Source: Salarchaeum sp. JOR-1
Lineage (GTDB): Archaea > Halobacteriota > Halobacteria > Halobacteriales > Halobacteriaceae
Length of the DNA stretch: 64,000 nt
Reading direction: 5' to 3'
Assembly: GCF_007833275.1 (NCBI RefSeq)
Contig: NZ_CP042241.1
Coordinates: forward strand, 2,108,001-2,172,000
Part shown: positions 23,622-29,596 of the stretch, piece by piece
Layout: every line of letters starts with the position of its first letter
Numbering within the stretch: the stretch's first letter is position 1
The notes under the pieces: generated by a model
Database searches by the model: none
What the model was told of the DNA's origin: nothing
Seen by the model: only the letters and a program-made list of their open reading frames with translations
Program-made: the position numbers and the translations under genes

Positions 23622-25451
23622 TTAGTACGACCGCTCTTTCGGCTCGTAGGTCTTGTTCTCGCCGTCGAGGATGACGGGGCGGTACCAGAGTTCGGGTTCG
23701 CCGTCGTTCCAGGAGACCATTGTGTGCTTGAGCCACTCGTCGTCCTTGCGCTCCTGGTGTTCCTTGCGCCAGTGGGCGCCGCGGAACTCGTCGCGGGCGA
23801 GCGCGCCCATAGTGAGGGCTTCGGCGATGTCGAGGATGTTCCGGGTTTCGAGGGTGTGCTGGAGGTCGGTGTTGAACGTCCGGGACTTGTCCGCGACGTA
23901 CACGTCCTCGTAGCGTTCCCGGGCGTCCCGGATATCGTGGAGCGTCTCCTCGAGCGCGTCCTCCTCCCGGAAGACGTTGACGTTCGCGGTCATCGTCTTC
24001 TGGATGTCGGAGCGGATTTCGGCGTGCTGGGTTCCCTCGTCCTTCTCCAGGAGGCGCGTGATGCGGTCGTCCTCGCGTTCGACCGCCGCGTTCACCACCG
24101 TCTCGGGGTCGGCGGCAGCGAGGCCGCCGTCGGCAGCGGCTTCGTCGTCGCCGACGGTGCCGAGCGAGGCGGTGGTGTCGATGTCTTCGAGCTCGGGGTT
24201 TGCGGGTTTCCCGGTCTGGATCTTGGGTTCGCCGAAGTCGCGGCCGGCGGCGTGCGAGCCGGCGCGCTTCCCGAACACGATGAGTTCCGGAAGGGCGTTC
24301 CCGCCGAGGCGGTTCCCGCCGTGCACGCTCACGCACGCGCACTCGCCGACGGCGTACAGGCCGTCGATGCACGTCTGACCGTGTTCGTTCGTCTCGATAC
24401 CGCCCATGGCGTAGTGGTGGCCGGGCTTGACGGGCATCGGTTCTTCGAGGCCGTCGACACCCTCGAAGTCCTCCGCGAGGTGGAGGATGTTCTCCAGGCG
24501 GTCGAGTATGCGTTCTTCACCGAGGTGACGCATGTCGAGCATTACGTACTCGTCCTCGAACCCGCGGCCCTCGTTGACTTCCGTGAGCTCGGCGCGCGCG
24601 ACCACGTCGCGGCTGGCGAGTTCGCCGTCGTTGGTCGCGTACCCGTACTCGAACATGAATCGCTCGCCCTCCGTGTTGTAGAGGATGCCGCCCTCCCCGC
24701 GCACGCCCTCACTGATCAGGACGCCGGTCGAGGGGAGCGTCGTCGGGTGGAACTGGATGAACTCCATGTCCTCCATCGGGACGCCGGCGCGGTAGGCCAT
24801 CGCGACGCCGTCGCCGGTGTTCGCGACCGCGTTCGTGGTGTGGTCGAACACCTGCCCCATCCCGCCAGTCGCGAGGATGACGCCGTCGTTCGCGTGGAAG
24901 CCCGCGAGTTCGCCGGTCTGCACGTCGTAGCCGACGATGCCGTGACAGCTGCGTTCGTTCGGGTCGTCCTCGTCCGTGACGGCGAGGTTCGTGACGTACC
25001 ACTCGTCGTACACCTCGATGCCGCGCTTGACGACCTGTTCGTAGAGCGTGTGGAGGAGGTGATGGCCGGTCTCCGCGCCCGCGTACGTGGTGCGGGGGAA
25101 GGAGAGGCCGCCGAACGGCCGCTGACTGACGCGGCCGTCGTCCTCGCGCGAGAAGGGCATTCCCCAGTTTTCGAGCTGGATGACGTTCTCGGGCGCGTCC
25201 TGCGCGAGCGTCTCGACGGCGGGGGCGTCACCGAGGTAGTCCGACCCCTTCATCGTGTCGTACGCGTGGTCTTGCCACGAGTCACCGTTCCGTAGCGCCG
25301 CGTTGATGCCGCCCTCGGCCGCGCCCGTGTGGGAGCGAACCGGGTGGAGTTTCGTGACGAGCGCCACGTCCGCGCCTTCCTCGTGCGCCGCGATGGCCGC
25401 ACGGAGTCCGGCGCCGCCTGCACCGACTACGAGTACGTCGTGTTCGTACAT
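23622..25451 (-). CDS. sdhA: Succinate dehydrogenase flavoprotein subunit SdhA
   Basis: A 609-residue FAD subunit, last gene of sdhCDBA. It oxidises succinate to fumarate in the TCA cycle. The FAD site is VLVVGAGGAGLRAAIAAHEE (residues 6-25). The region around the covalent FAD histidine is HPVRSHTGAAEGGINAAL. The substrate-binding and catalytic segments include EFIQFHPTTLPSTGVLISEG, SEGVRGEGGIL, HYAMGGIETNEHGQT and GNRLGGNALPELIVFGKRAG. The C-terminus ends PKERSY. The start is 3 bp after the sdhB stop. Its stop lies within the terminator cassette shared with panB. Confidence 0.98.
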   Translation of the reverse strand: MYEHDVLVVGAGGAGLRAAIAAHEEGADVALVTKLHPVRSHTGAAEGGINAALRNGDSWQDHAYDTMKGSDYLGDAPAVETLAQDAPENVIQLENWGMPFSREDDGRVSQRPFGGLSFPRTTYAGAETGHHLLHTLYEQVVKRGIEVYDEWYVTNLAVTDEDDPNERSCHGIVGYDVQTGELAGFHANDGVILATGGMGQVFDHTTNAVANTGDGVAMAYRAGVPMEDMEFIQFHPTTLPSTGVLISEGVRGEGGILYNTEGERFMFEYGYATNDGELASRDVVARAELTEVNEGRGFEDEYVMLDMRHLGEERILDRLENILHLAEDFEGVDGLEEPMPVKPGHHYAMGGIETNEHGQTCIDGLYAVGECACVSVHGGNRLGGNALPELIVFGKRAGSHAAGRDFGEPKIQTGKPANPELEDIDTTASLGTVGDDEAAADGGLAAADPETVVNAAVEREDDRITRLLEKDEGTQHAEIRSDIQKTMTANVNVFREEDALEETLHDIRDARERYEDVYVADKSRTFNTDLQHTLETRNILDIAEALTMGALARDEFRGAHWRKEHQERKDDEWLKHTMVSWNDGEPELWYRPVILDGENKTYEPKERSY

Positions 25452-25454
25452 GAT

Positions 25455-26297
25455 TTACCAGAATTTGAGATTGCTCTTCACGGCTTCTCGCTTGAGCTCC
25501 TGAATGTGCTCCGTGAGCGGGATGTCCTTCGGACAGACCGTGGTACAGGAGAACTGGGTCTGGCAGCGCCAGACGCCGTGTTCCTGTTCGATGATTTCGA
25601 GGCGTTCCTGCTGGCGGTCGTCGCCCTCGCGGTCGTCGAAGTAGAACCGGTAGGCCTTGTTGATGGCCGCGGGGCCGAGGTACTCGTTGTCGCCAGCGGC
25701 GATGTTGCAGGAGGACATGCACGCGCCACACCAGATGCAGCGCGTGCTCATCTTGATCTTCTCCCGGTTCTCGCGGGACTGAAGCTGCTCGCCCTCCGGT
25801 TCCTCGTTCGGACTGAAGTAGGGTTCCACCGACTCCATCTGGTCGTAGAAGTGCTCCATCTCCACGACGAGGTCTTTCACCACGTCCGCGTGCGGGAGCG
25901 GTTCGACTCGAACCGTGTCGGAGTTGTTCAGATCCTGAATCTGGGTCTGACAACCGAGGCGCTGACTGCCGTTGATGAACAGCGCGTCCGACCCGCAGAC
26001 GGCCTGGCGGCAGGAGTGCCGGAAGGTGAGACTGGAGTCGAAGTGGTCGCGGGCGTGCATCAGGGCGTCCAGCACGGTCATCCCCTGTTTTCGCGGGACG
26101 TGGAACGTGTCGAAGCGCGGTTCCTGTTTGTCCGCGATCTCGGGGTCGTACCGGAATACCTTCAGTTCGACCGTGTCCTCGGCGGTCTCGGTTGCGGAGG
26201 ACGCGGCTTCCTCGGCGCGTTCTTCCTTGCGTTCGAGGCGTTCGGCCTGTGGATCCGTTTCCGACTCGGTCTGCGTGTCCGGTGATTGCGTGCTCAT
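25455..26297 (-). CDS. sdhB: Succinate dehydrogenase iron-sulfur subunit SdhB
   Basis: A 280-residue subunit carrying three Fe-S clusters that pass electrons from SdhA to quinone. The N-terminal ferredoxin domain has the [2Fe-2S] cysteines in SCRQAVCGSDALFINGSQRL followed by GC. The C-terminal domain has CIWCGACMSSC and CQTQFSCTTVCPKD for the [4Fe-4S] and [3Fe-4S] centres. An acidic extension of about 40 residues rich in Glu, Ala and Thr precedes the conserved part. The ATG overlaps the sdhD stop by 4 bp. Confidence 0.98.
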   Translation of the reverse strand: MSTQSPDTQTESETDPQAERLERKEERAEEAASSATETAEDTVELKVFRYDPEIADKQEPRFDTFHVPRKQGMTVLDALMHARDHFDSSLTFRHSCRQAVCGSDALFINGSQRLGCQTQIQDLNNSDTVRVEPLPHADVVKDLVVEMEHFYDQMESVEPYFSPNEEPEGEQLQSRENREKIKMSTRCIWCGACMSSCNIAAGDNEYLGPAAINKAYRFYFDDREGDDRQQERLEIIEQEHGVWRCQTQFSCTTVCPKDIPLTEHIQELKREAVKSNLKFW

Positions 26298-26665
26298 AGT
26301 AGACTACCTCCGGCGAGTGCGAACGAGACGCGGAGCCCCTGCACGAACAGGGCGGCTCCCGCGACGATCAGCACCCACTTCGCGACGCGCTTCGGCGTGC
26401 CGCTGATTCCCTGATTGACGAGTGCGTTGTAGATGCCGTTGACGCCGTGGAACGTCGCCGTTCCGAGGAACAACACCATCGTCAGCCAGTACGCCGGTAC
26501 CTCCATTCGGCCCATGCTGCCCGCGAACGTGATTTCGGGCGCGTGGTTGTAGAAGTGCAGGAGGAAGAAGTGGAACGCGAGCGTCACAACGAGGAACGCC
26601 GCGGTTGCTCGCTGCAGGAACCACGCCAGGCCGCCGCGACTGAACGAGGAGTAACGTTCTGCCAT
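26294..26665 (-). CDS. sdhD: Succinate dehydrogenase membrane anchor SdhD
   Basis: A 123-residue membrane subunit with three predicted helices: ATAAFLVVTLAFHFFLLHFY, PAYWLTMVLFLGTATFHGVN and VLIVAGAALFVQGLRVSFAL. The histidines in AFHFFLLHFYNHAPE and TFHGVNGIYN are candidate haem or quinone-site ligands. It starts 1 bp after the sdhC stop and overlaps sdhB by 4 bp. Its identity rests on position and topology as much as on sequence, since anchors diverge quickly. Confidence 0.9.
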   Translation of the reverse strand: MAERYSSFSRGGLAWFLQRATAAFLVVTLAFHFFLLHFYNHAPEITFAGSMGRMEVPAYWLTMVLFLGTATFHGVNGIYNALVNQGISGTPKRVAKWVLIVAGAALFVQGLRVSFALAGGSLL

Positions 26666-26666
26666 G

Positions 26667-27092
26667 TTAGAATGCCCCCGCGAGGAACGTCGGGACGCTC
26701 GCCACGACGATAGCGCCGGTGAGGACGAGCGACGCGTAGAAGCTCTTGTCTTGCTGTTCGAGTCCGAGTCCGAGATCCACGAGGAGCAGGCGAACGCCGT
26801 TCAGGATGTGGAAGACGGCGACCGCGAGCAGACCAACCTCGAGGAATCGGACGATGACGATGCTTTCGAGGCCGTGGAGCGTCTGGGTGTAGATGTCCTC
26901 GCCGTTCGCGATGACGGCGGCGGACGCGTCCGCCGCTTCGATGGACGTGCTGAGAACGGCGATGTGCGTGAACAGGTACGCGATGAGTACCCACCCCGTG
27001 AACTTATGAAACACCCAGGCCCACATGCCGGCCGAGAACTCCCGCCATCGGCCGAAGTCCTCGATGAGGCCCCGGTCGTACGACTGACTCAT
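26667..27092 (-). CDS. sdhC: Succinate dehydrogenase cytochrome b subunit SdhC
   Basis: A 141-residue membrane subunit and first gene of the operon. Three helices can be seen: [40 protein letters not shown] and [26 protein letters not shown] and the histidine in FTHIAVL or [10 protein letters not shown] fit the cytochrome b556 signature. ATG 27092 ([16 protein letters not shown]) is chosen over an upstream in-frame start, because the extension is poor sequence and lies in the promoter. TTCTATG about 28 bp upstream is a weak TATA candidate. Confidence 0.92.
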
Positions 27093-27143
27093 ACCACGTG
27101 AACCTCTGGCCCCGCTCCACATAGAAGTTACTAACCCCGCATC

Positions 27144-28166
27144 CTACGCGGGTCGCTGGGGCGTCGTGCCGGCGCGGTCGCGTTCGTACGCGCGCCGCGT
27201 GGATTCGTCGAGTTCGACGAGGTGGCAGAGCGGGTTCCCGGGGTAGACGACGGGGTTTTCGAGGAGGCCGACGAGCAGTCCCGTGAACGGCGCGGCCACC
27301 GCGTCTCGCGTGGACTTGAACGGGTTCGTGATGGTGCAGATCCTGTCGCCCTCGCGAACGAGGTCGCCGTGCGCGTAGTGGGTCTCGACGATGCCGCCGG
27401 CGTCCGCTCGGAGCCACGTCTTCTCGCCGGAGTCGATGACGGTCCGCCAGCCCGGCCAGTCCACGGGGTCGGCGGGGTGGAGGCCGTACTGGGCGAGCAC
27501 GCTCGCGACGCCGTCGAGCGCCTCGTCGATGAACCGCCGCTGGAACCGGTGGGCCTCCCCCATCTCGACCGTGACGGTGGGGACGCCGGCGTCGCTCGCT
27601 TCCCGGCGGAGCGTCCCGTCGGGGCCGGTGCTGTCGATGATGACGTTCGACCCGAACGCGCGCGCGAGCGCCGCCACGTTCTCGTCGTCCATGTCGGCGC
27701 GGACGTGGAGCATGTTCGACCGGCCGCGCGTCGAGGTGTGGAAGTCCATCCCGTAGTCGCAGGGTTCGATGAAGTTCGTGAACAGCTGGTGCGCCATCCG
27801 CTTCGCGCTCGTCGAGGTGTCGTTCCCGGGGAAGGAGCGGTTGAGGTCGCGGTCGTAGATCGGGAGGTAGCGCTGCTGGGCGGTGAACCCGGGGACGTTC
27901 ACGACGGGCAGGCAGACGAGCGTCCCGTGGAGGTTGTCGTGCGGCCAGTCCTGTGCGACCTCCCGCACGACCTCGATGCCGTTGAGTTCGTCGCCGTGCA
28001 CGGCCGCGGAGAGGAACACCGTCGGGCCGTCGTGGGGGCCGTTGACGATGGTGACGGGGATGCGGACGGGATCTCCGAGGTAGGTCTCGCTGATGCTGTA
28101 CCGGATGTCGGCGGTCTCCCCCGGGTCGACTCGGCCGCCGTTGTACGTGAACGCCCCGTCTGTCAT
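27144..28166 (-). CDS. Succinylglutamate desuccinylase/aspartoacylase-like zinc hydrolase
   Basis: A 340-residue M14-like metallohydrolase of the AstE/aspartoacylase family. Zinc ligands are in AAVHGDELNGIEVVRE (HGDE, about residues 54-57) and GMDFHTSTRGR. The substrate-binding arginine pair lies in DRDLNRSFPG. A C-terminal barrel-like segment (LRADAGGIVETHYAHGDLVR, AAPFTGLLVGLL) is typical. The family removes acyl or amino-acyl groups from amino-acid or peptide ends. It is divergent, 95 bp away, from a RimK ligase fused to a retropepsin-like domain; such genes are known to cluster together. I infer it trims products of that ligase. ATG 28166 is chosen from a TATA box about 27 bp upstream. 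Confidence 0.88.
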   Translation of the reverse strand: MTDGAFTYNGGRVDPGETADIRYSISETYLGDPVRIPVTIVNGPHDGPTVFLSAAVHGDELNGIEVVREVAQDWPHDNLHGTLVCLPVVNVPGFTAQQRYLPIYDRDLNRSFPGNDTSTSAKRMAHQLFTNFIEPCDYGMDFHTSTRGRSNMLHVRADMDDENVAALARAFGSNVIIDSTGPDGTLRREASDAGVPTVTVEMGEAHRFQRRFIDEALDGVASVLAQYGLHPADPVDWPGWRTVIDSGEKTWLRADAGGIVETHYAHGDLVREGDRICTITNPFKSTRDAVAAPFTGLLVGLLENPVVYPGNPLCHLVELDESTRRAYERDRAGTTPQRPA

Positions 28167-28186
28167 TACCGGGTCTGGGGGCCGGA

Positions 28187-28238
28187 CGCGTAAAAGCGTG
28201 TGCGGGCGGACGGCCAGCAGGATGCGGCATGCCTTTAG
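28187..28238. promoter_or_regulatory. Divergent promoter, aspartoacylase-like gene and rimK fusion
   Basis: CGTAAAAGCG (about 28188-28197), read on the minus strand, is a TATA-like box about 27 bp before the ATG at 28166. CCTTTAG (28230-28236) is the box about 28 bp before the ATG at 28262. The two genes could be co-regulated from this 95-bp gap. Confidence 0.45.
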
Positions 28239-28261
28239 TCCGTCCACGAGTCAGTTCGTCT

Positions 28262-29596
28262 ATGACCGAGTCGGTACACGTAGGGGTTCTGAGCCTACAC
28301 ACTTCGAAGGAGACGAAAGCCATCCTGAACGCAGTAGAGGCGCTCGGACACGAGTCGACGTGGCTTCGCGAGGAGACGCTGTCCGTGGACGTGCGGGACG
28401 GCGAGGTGACGCTAGACCCGGACGTGGACGTGGTCGTGAACCGCCTCCTGCTGTCGAACACGGAACAGCCGGCGGAACTCCTCGGACTGGCACACACGCT
28501 GGAGGGCGTGACGCCGATGCTGAACGAGCCGTCGAGCGTCCTGACGGCGTTCCACAAGTACGCGACCGCCACGCACCTCACGGCAGCCGGTCTGTCCGTG
28601 CCGAATGCGTTCCTCTCGCTGTCGGCGGATCGCTTGAACGCGGAGCGCCCCCGGTTCGGCGAGGAGGCCGTGTTCAAGACCGCCATCGGGACGCACGGCG
28701 GTGGGACGTGGAAGGTCGGGGCAGACGAGGACGTGAACCCCCGCGTGGGCGAGCGGTACGCGTTCCTGCAGGAGCTCATCGACCGCGACGAAGACCGGCA
28801 CCGCGACCTCCGCGTGTACGTGGTCGACGGCGAAGTCATCGCGTCGATGCGGCGGTTCGCTCCCGAGAACGACTGGCGGACGAACGTCGCGCTCGGCGGG
28901 GACGTCGAGGGCGTCGCCGACCTCCCCGCGGACGCGGAGTCGCTCGCGCGGGACGCCGCGTCGACGCTCGGCCTCGACATGGCCGGCGTGGATCTCGTGG
29001 AGGGCGAGGACGGCTGGTACGTCCTCGAAGTCAACCCCACCGCGGGCTTCAAGGGCCTGTTCGAGGCGACGAGCACGAGTCCGGCGCCGGACATCGCGCG
29101 GCTCGCGGTCGAGCGCGTGGGCGGGAGCGTTGACGCCGACGCGGTCGAGCGCCTCCGCGGGCAGTTCGACACCTCGACGCCGTCGAGCGCGCCGCGGACG
29201 CCGGGCGCGCCGACGGAGCAGCGCACCATCGGATACACGGAGGAAGTCCTCGTCTCGGGGACGAGCGGCACCGAGCGCACGCTCGCGAAGTCAGACACGG
29301 GCGCTTCGCGCACCAGTCTCGACACGTCGCTCGCCGCGACAATCGGCGCCGGCCCGATCAAGCGCATGACGAAGGTGAAGTCGGGGAGCATGAAACAGGG
29401 GAAGGCGCGGCCCGTCGTGGACATCGTGGTGAGCGTGAACGGCGACCGGCACACCGTCGCCGCGAGCCTCGAAGACCGCGGCCACATGGACTACCCGCTC
29501 CTGCTCGGCCGGGACATCCTCAAGCACTACCACGTGGACGTGACGCGGACGACGGACGGCGAGAAAGCGGAGGAAGAGGAACTGGACGAGGAGTAG
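28262..29596 (+). CDS. RimK-type ATP-grasp ligase fused to a retropepsin-like (RLAN) domain
   Basis: A 444-residue two-domain protein. Residues 1 to about 280 are a RimK-family ATP-grasp amino-acid ligase: FKTAIGTHGGGTWKVG (ATP loop), RYAFLQELIDRDEDRHRDLR, VYVVDGEVIASMRRFA and DLVEGEDGWYVLEVNPTAGF (metal-binding E-x-N). After a Thr/Ser/Pro linker, residues about 315-435 match the RimK-linked aspartyl-protease-like domain: the catalytic-type DTGA in AKSDTGASRTSLD, and YPLLLGRDIL where retropepsins have a LIGRDFL-like motif. Such ligases add amino acids, often glutamate, to proteins or small molecules; the protease-like domain is thought to remove or process them. Its divergent neighbour is an aspartoacylase-like hydrolase. 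ATG 28262 has a TATA box about 28 bp upstream. Confidence 0.88.
   Translation: MTESVHVGVLSLHTSKETKAILNAVEALGHESTWLREETLSVDVRDGEVTLDPDVDVVVNRLLLSNTEQPAELLGLAHTLEGVTPMLNEPSSVLTAFHKYATATHLTAAGLSVPNAFLSLSADRLNAERPRFGEEAVFKTAIGTHGGGTWKVGADEDVNPRVGERYAFLQELIDRDEDRHRDLRVYVVDGEVIASMRRFAPENDWRTNVALGGDVEGVADLPADAESLARDAASTLGLDMAGVDLVEGEDGWYVLEVNPTAGFKGLFEATSTSPAPDIARLAVERVGGSVDADAVERLRGQFDTSTPSSAPRTPGAPTEQRTIGYTEEVLVSGTSGTERTLAKSDTGASRTSLDTSLAATIGAGPIKRMTKVKSGSMKQGKARPVVDIVVSVNGDRHTVAASLEDRGHMDYPLLLGRDILKHYHVDVTRTTDGEKAEEEELDEE

Follow-up and report, generated by a model that had tools for sequence, protein, structure and literature searches.

Fusion of a RimK-type ligase with a RimB-like retropepsin domain in haloarchaea, its hydrolase partner and a candidate role in C-terminal glutamate tailing

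The window analyzed here, a stretch of 64,000 nucleotides from Salarchaeum sp. JOR-1 (contig NZ_CP042241.1, positions 2,108,001 to 2,172,000), carries a gene in which a RimK-type ATP-grasp ligase is fused to a C-terminal RimB-like retropepsin domain (RimKB; 28262..29596, plus strand, 444 aa, defined by the open reading frame and profile matches). Its partner, an AstE/AspA-type zinc-hydrolase-like protein of 340 aa, is encoded on the minus strand at 27144..28166 and was assigned by PF24827, alignment and co-occurrence. We propose, with reasonable though not high confidence, that the two form a haloarchaeal glutamate-tailing pathway in which RimKB is a fused writer and eraser of C-terminal glutamate, its own tail is a candidate acceptor, and the hydrolase acts in the same pathway. 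The proposal draws on features read from genome sequences: the architecture, the families of both halves and of the hydrolase, their catalytic residues, co-occurrence and joint loss, the absence of a match to ribosomal protein S6, and a constraint on the C-terminal residues. RimK and RimB biology has so far been studied as bacterial ribosome modification, and a conserved archaeal version without a recognizable S6 raises the question of what else C-terminal glutamylation controls.

Domain architecture of RimKB

The ligase profile PF08443 matched RimKB residues 104-272 (28571..29077, plus strand; E=1.5e-20, 74 bits against a cut-off of 21), and PF05618 matched residues 365-430 (E=1.6e-9, 38.2 bits against a curated cut-off of 27). 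Both profiles matched 26 of 26 aligned homologs and the DTGA motif was invariant, showing that the match to the fusion was not due to chance. A sequence-only reading of this DNA had placed a ligase and a retropepsin-like domain in one chain, opposite an aspartoacylase-like hydrolase. Its open reading frame positions, the 95-bp gap and the motifs quoted from the two reading frames (FKTAIGTHGGGTWKVG, LEVNPTAGF, SDTGA, LLLGRDIL, HGDE and DFHTS) were all recovered, and the profiles confirmed both domains as well as the hydrolase family (PF24827, E=4e-49).

The retropepsin-like domain spans residues 320-432 (29219..29557, plus strand). A profile of the haloarchaeal domain aligned in hhalign with a profile of bacterial and Methanosarcina RimB at 96.8% probability (E=2.7e-10), and it retrieved RloA from the Protein Data Bank (PDB; 9g59, E=1.4e-8, and 9g58) and also 2pma. 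The catalytic DTGA motif (D345; 29294..29305, plus strand) aligned with D-[ST]-G-A of RimB. LLLGRDIL, the second retropepsin hallmark (29498..29521, plus strand), aligned through LLLGRD with MLLGR of RimB, and its LGRD was likewise invariant in the 26 homologs. Judged by profile and motif, the C-terminal domain is a RimB/RloA-type retropepsin (PF05618). The retropepsin resemblance seen in the sequence-only reading was thus upheld, but the name RLAN that it gave to the domain was not: RLAN (PF14401) is a different domain from PF05618 and was absent from the RimKB matches at E<=1. RLAN systems are also linked to RimK-like ATP-grasp enzymes. A genome-wide search for PF14401 gave no match, and since the positive controls were silent too, that search was uninformative. 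In RimKB paralogs on Natrononativus and Natronosalvus plasmids (L188, around residue 345, and L190), DTGA is replaced (RANPAH, RADPTS); these paralogs have apparently lost protease activity but retain the ligase domain and the C-terminal -EE.

In the ligase half, the ATP-grasp motifs (the GTHGGG loop, K139, E256 and N258) were invariant in the homolog alignment. The score with TIGR00768 was 140.0, just below the cut-off of 143.4, and the S6-ligase equivalog PRK10446 gave 57 bits against a cut-off of 331; scores with the MptN and LysX models were higher, at 113 and 97 bits, respectively. When the AlphaFold2 model of this half was searched with Foldseek, the top structures were LysX/ArgX and RimK. 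In the tree, the haloarchaeal RimKB ligases formed their own clade (support 100/100) on a long branch outside the bacterial RimK clade, weakly near MptN (84/78); as long-branch joins were flagged by the tree tool, our claim is restricted to the exclusion from the bacterial clade and leaves the nearest neighbor aside. The region aligned to the LysX/ArgX recognition loop reads GTHGGGTWKV, not the GSWGR of a carrier ligase. Two other RimK-family members occur in haloarchaeal genomes, one beside MptN in the tree and one ArgX-like. A RimK-family ligase near MptN in the tree, scoring about 150 bits with MptN_Meth, was seen at L158-L163 (G012, G117, G026, G000, G049 and G044).

Conserved glutamates at the RimKB C-terminus

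RimKB ends in an acidic, length-variable tail closing with Glu-Glu (29558..29593, plus strand), which was delimited from homolog C-termini and is a candidate glutamylation acceptor in cis. Read back from the stop codon, 99 of 104 distinct homologs ended in Glu and 85 of 104 in Glu-Glu, on acidic tails of 13 to 37 residues after LGRDxL. The Glu frequency was 0.95, 0.85 and 0.31 at positions -1, -2 and -3, respectively. By contrast, only 18% of control proteins, taken from among the other proteins of the same fetched loci, ended in Glu and 1.5% in Glu-Glu (Fisher 1e-31, a value that overstates independence since the homologs are related). This worry about kinship was reduced because neighbor proteins whose C-termini vary just as much (the hydrolase and an alkA-like protein) had no fixed last residue, and -EE was kept on very dissimilar tails by six plasmid paralogs that are divergent (about 50% identity), of which two have a destroyed DTG. 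No Glu end was found in the bacterial RimK and RimBK C-termini inspected or in Methanosarcina RimK. The constraint on the encoded C-terminal glutamates is new here, and it reduces the question of the target to a single mass-spectrometry test.

Glu runs in the encoded tails were of four or fewer residues in 51 of 58 cases. Since RimB requires a stretch of five or six contiguous Glu (PMC11957791), the tail as encoded would serve as a primer, and cleavage would become possible only after the tail has been extended. By analogy, the acidic C-terminus of RimKB resembles known acceptors of the RimK/LysX superfamily: an acidic penultimate residue is required in the acceptor RpsF (PMC4741518), and haloarchaeal ArgX joins Glu to the C-terminal Glu54 of ArgW (PMC10433800).

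Distribution of RimKB and its linkage to the hydrolase

The fusion, counted as present at a best E below 1e-100, was found order-wide in 258 of 293 haloarchaeal genomes. Haloferax volcanii, which is available as a laboratory strain, has a PF05618 protein. In the sampled phylum outside the order, PF05618 proteins were separate, and each matching open frame had at most 305 aa. Methanosarcina-type genomes (L112-L118) carried an ordinary rimB-rimK gene pair with the ligase inside the bacterial RimK clade; S6 is not expected there. A literature search on the haloarchaeal fusion gene found nothing.

The catalytic set of the hydrolase (H57, E60, N109, R110, H143 and E201) was invariant in 28 aligned sequences, bacterial relatives included. 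Assignment as DoeB or as AstE (succinylglutamate desuccinylase) was rejected, as TIGR02994 scored 85.8 against a cut-off of 402.7 and TIGR03242 25.7 against 305.7; annotated doeB genes were only about 24-34% identical to the hydrolase. Of the 30 genomes fetched first, 29 had the gene in divergent orientation beside the fusion. The two lay within 6 kb of each other at 71 of the 80 named loci, with a usual distance of 83-375 bp, and in the Natrialba group they were about 3 kb apart.

Presence and absence were compared across genomes to tell functional linkage from synteny. An orthologous hydrolase was present in all 46 fusion-positive genomes tested, including those where the pair was 38-195 kb apart (G038, G094 and G026). 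It was absent from 30 of 34 fusion-negative genomes and present in four (Fisher 5e-18). When only fusion-negative genomes at least 90% complete were considered, it was absent from 21 of 23, and the two exceptions (G167, locus L153, and G214, locus L154) retained short RimK-part remnants of the fusion beside an intact hydrolase. In G056 and G146 both genes were gone between sdhC and the alkA-like gene, and the rest of their genus carries both. Because the hydrolase was present with the fusion even when unlinked and mostly absent without it, the two genes are, on this comparative evidence, functionally linked; their joint loss with sdhC retained points to the fusion, and not succinate dehydrogenase, as the partner of the hydrolase. 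The partnership expected in the sequence-only reading therefore holds across haloarchaeal genomes and is no peculiarity of this one. In G172 (L146), a hydrolase fragment alone was kept next to sdhC. A Haladaptatus pallidirubidus plasmid (L186, 3474-7993) groups a RimKB paralog with an AstE/AspA hydrolase and a gene of the GCS2-type glutamate-cysteine ligase family, possibly as an extended amidoligase module.

Comparison with known systems

The RimB and RimK proteins of Pseudomonas fluorescens (rimABK; PMC11957791, PMC7343187, PMC4741518) resemble RimKB in combining the ATP-grasp alpha-L-glutamate ligase family with a PF05618 DTG retropepsin. However, rimB and rimK are separate genes there, with RpsF/S6 as the target and control by c-di-GMP and RimA, whereas the haloarchaeal protein is a single chain. 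Ribosomal protein S6 was searched for in 11 haloarchaeal genomes, with ten bacteria as positive controls; it had no match in the haloarchaea and was rejected as the RimKB target. Bacterial RimK also belongs to a different ligase clade and differs in its C-terminus, where RimKB ends in Glu. Bacterial RimB takes poly-Glu off RpsF and stimulates RimK (PMC11957791).

Both domains also occur in one chain in the RimBK hybrids of Desulfotalea, Flavobacteriales and Rhodobacterales (PMC11957791). The hybrid is proteolytically active, and its RimB part strips poly-Glu from RpsF (Little et al., PMC11957791). In RimBK, however, the RimB domain is N-terminal (Thioclava example), whereas in RimKB it follows the ligase. 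The Thioclava ligase grouped with Methanosarcina RimK inside the bacterial RimK clade, outside of which the RimKB ligase was placed, and RimBK ends in ...VPRKA instead of Glu. The reversed domain order and the position of the ligase outside the bacterial RimK clade indicate that haloarchaeal RimKB is probably an independent, reversed fusion. The survey of Little et al. covered bacterial accessions only (PMC11957791). A candidate bacterial fusion of the same order in Vibrio THAF190c proved to be two adjacent genes.

In a plasmid collection, the bacterial proteins closest to the hydrolase were 32-39% identical and mostly encoded beside rimK and rimB, in cassettes of Salinivibrio, Vibrio europaeus, V. 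nigripulchritudo, Acaryochloris and Phaeobacter. Two Photobacterium records examined by tblastn had the hydrolase near rim genes (one with rimK only), and one V. parahaemolyticus copy had no rimK nearby. These rimB-rimK-AstE/AspA cassettes hold the same three activities and the same hydrolase catalytic set as the haloarchaeal pair, although as three separate genes on one strand, in organisms with S6, and not as a fusion with a divergent hydrolase. Since the closest bacterial hydrolases mostly adjoin rimK and rimB and share the catalytic set, the haloarchaeal pair is, by gene content and alignment, the archaeal version of a rimB-rimK-hydrolase cassette with three parts. The hydrolase was not mentioned in the RimB/RimK papers searched, including their descriptions of the rim locus. 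The phylogenetic pairing points to the AstE/AspA-type hydrolase, present in several bacterial rim operons, as an overlooked third component. In Salinivibrio and Vibrio (L122, L123 and L126), the cassettes adjoin genes for mechanosensitive channels, magnesium transporters, GGDEF proteins or universal stress proteins, a setting that hints at osmotic or ionic stress.

Two more distant systems share parts of the arrangement. In RloA/RloC of Pseudomonas aeruginosa (PMC12239564; PDB 9g58 and 9g59), a retropepsin of the same family is encoded with an ATP-grasp protein, but RloA is secreted, the genes are separate and RloB is a transmembrane partner. In LysW/ArgW with LysX/ArgX (PMC10433800), a RimK-superfamily ligase loads Glu onto a protein C-terminal Glu, as shown in a haloarchaeon. 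There the carrier is a separate 54-aa protein and recognition involves a GSWGR/EDWGE pair, whereas RimKB has the GTHGGG loop and its tail is part of the enzyme.

Proposed mechanism and alternatives

In the glutamate-tailing pathway that we favor, the RimK-type half would use ATP to add amino acids, by analogy most likely L-glutamate, onto C-terminal glutamates. The RimB-type half, acting as a dimer, would cut poly-Glu tails beyond about five residues and may also have a stimulating effect on the ligase, and the AstE/AspA-type hydrolase probably trims the last linked residue(s) or released peptides. The best acceptor candidate visible is the acidic tail of RimKB itself; other proteins are perhaps modified too. 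The idea of reversible amino-acid tagging in the sequence-only reading agrees with the bacterial RimB and RimK enzymes that have been tested (PMC11957791) and is a prediction for the haloarchaeal ones. A more specific version, which we hold only tentatively and consider somewhat doubtful, is that the acceptor is part of RimKB itself. The ligase would extend the conserved Glu-Glu of its own or a partner subunit's C-terminus and the fused retropepsin would shorten the tail, giving a self-contained writer-eraser. The automodified tail, normally below the roughly five-Glu length needed by RimB, would serve as a switch or as a covalent carrier discharged by the hydrolase.

Several points weigh against glutamate tailing. 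Both S6-type RimK and the bacterial clade are distant from the ligase, and its amino acid and acceptor may differ accordingly. The Desulfotalea psychrophila RimBK hybrid did not glutamylate RpsF of strain SBW25 (PMC11957791). No confident retropepsin model was obtained from AlphaFold for the full protein or for the domain alone (domain pLDDT 42), so the retropepsin fold and dimer assigned to this half derive from sequence. The loss of DTG in some paralogs suggests that proteolysis is not always needed, and the enzymatic activity of the haloarchaeal members is predicted. Finally, the hydrolase gene lies directly upstream of sdhC (sdhCDBA) on the same strand in 51 of 80 loci, and part of its linkage to the fusion could reflect shared synteny with sdh. 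Taken further, the hydrolase would belong functionally to the succinate dehydrogenase operon and its adjacency to RimKB would be inherited synteny. We regard this as very improbable, because the hydrolase is lost with RimKB while sdhC remains and is kept with RimKB even when far apart, bacterial rimB-rimK operons include it without sdh nearby, and Halorarius and Haladaptatus plasmids pair it with RimKB without sdh. In the window, the hydrolase directly precedes sdhCDBA (23622-28166, minus strand) and is possibly co-transcribed with succinate dehydrogenase.

The terminal Glu-Glu might instead be a structural or targeting element and not an acceptor, for instance a ligand that binds the ligase active site of the same molecule or a solubility tail of the halophilic kind. 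Haloarchaeal proteins are acidic and nearly a fifth of the controls end in Glu, but the rarity of Glu-Glu ends among the controls compared with 81% of fusions, the unconstrained neighbors and the bacterial RimK and RimBK proteins without a Glu end make this explanation rather unlikely. RimKB could also be a free-standing synthase and hydrolase of poly-alpha-glutamate, making a soluble polymer for charge, osmotic balance or nitrogen storage without a protein target, with oligomers recycled to glutamate by the hydrolase. Bacterial RimK does make free poly-alpha-Glu and RimB stimulates this (PMC11957791), and the mechanosensitive-channel and magnesium-transporter genes beside bacterial cassettes, as well as universal stress proteins beside plasmid RimKB paralogs, would fit. 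The polymer explanation nevertheless leaves a C-terminal Glu in 95% of homologs on varied tails unaccounted for, unless the tail primes polymerization, and we consider it improbable. The same constraint is left unexplained by a small-molecule role, in which the ligase would produce or alter a coenzyme or amino-acid derivative, like MptN, CofF and LysX/ArgX, and the product would be deacylated by the hydrolase in the manner of DoeB, AstE and aspartoacylase. The MptN and LysX scores, the tree position (excluded from the bacterial RimK clade, with weak proximity to MptN) and the activity of the hydrolase family on N-acyl amino acids speak for a small molecule. However, RimB domains that have been tested are poly-Glu endopeptidases and the genomes already hold the MptN-adjacent and ArgX-like family members, and a small-molecule role is likewise improbable.

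Promoters and alternative start

RimKB and the hydrolase gene are divergent, with a start-to-start distance of exactly 95 bp (intergenic region 28167..28261). A TATA-like element, TTTAGT, is located at 28234-28239, about 25 nt before the RimKB ATG, and a second at 28190-28197 faces the hydrolase, about 25 nt before its ATG; this spacing suggests that both transcripts are leaderless. An in-frame ATG 33 bp upstream of the RimKB start would give an alternative protein of 455 aa. In most homologs listed, the fusion gene is preceded by a TATA-like element at a similar distance.

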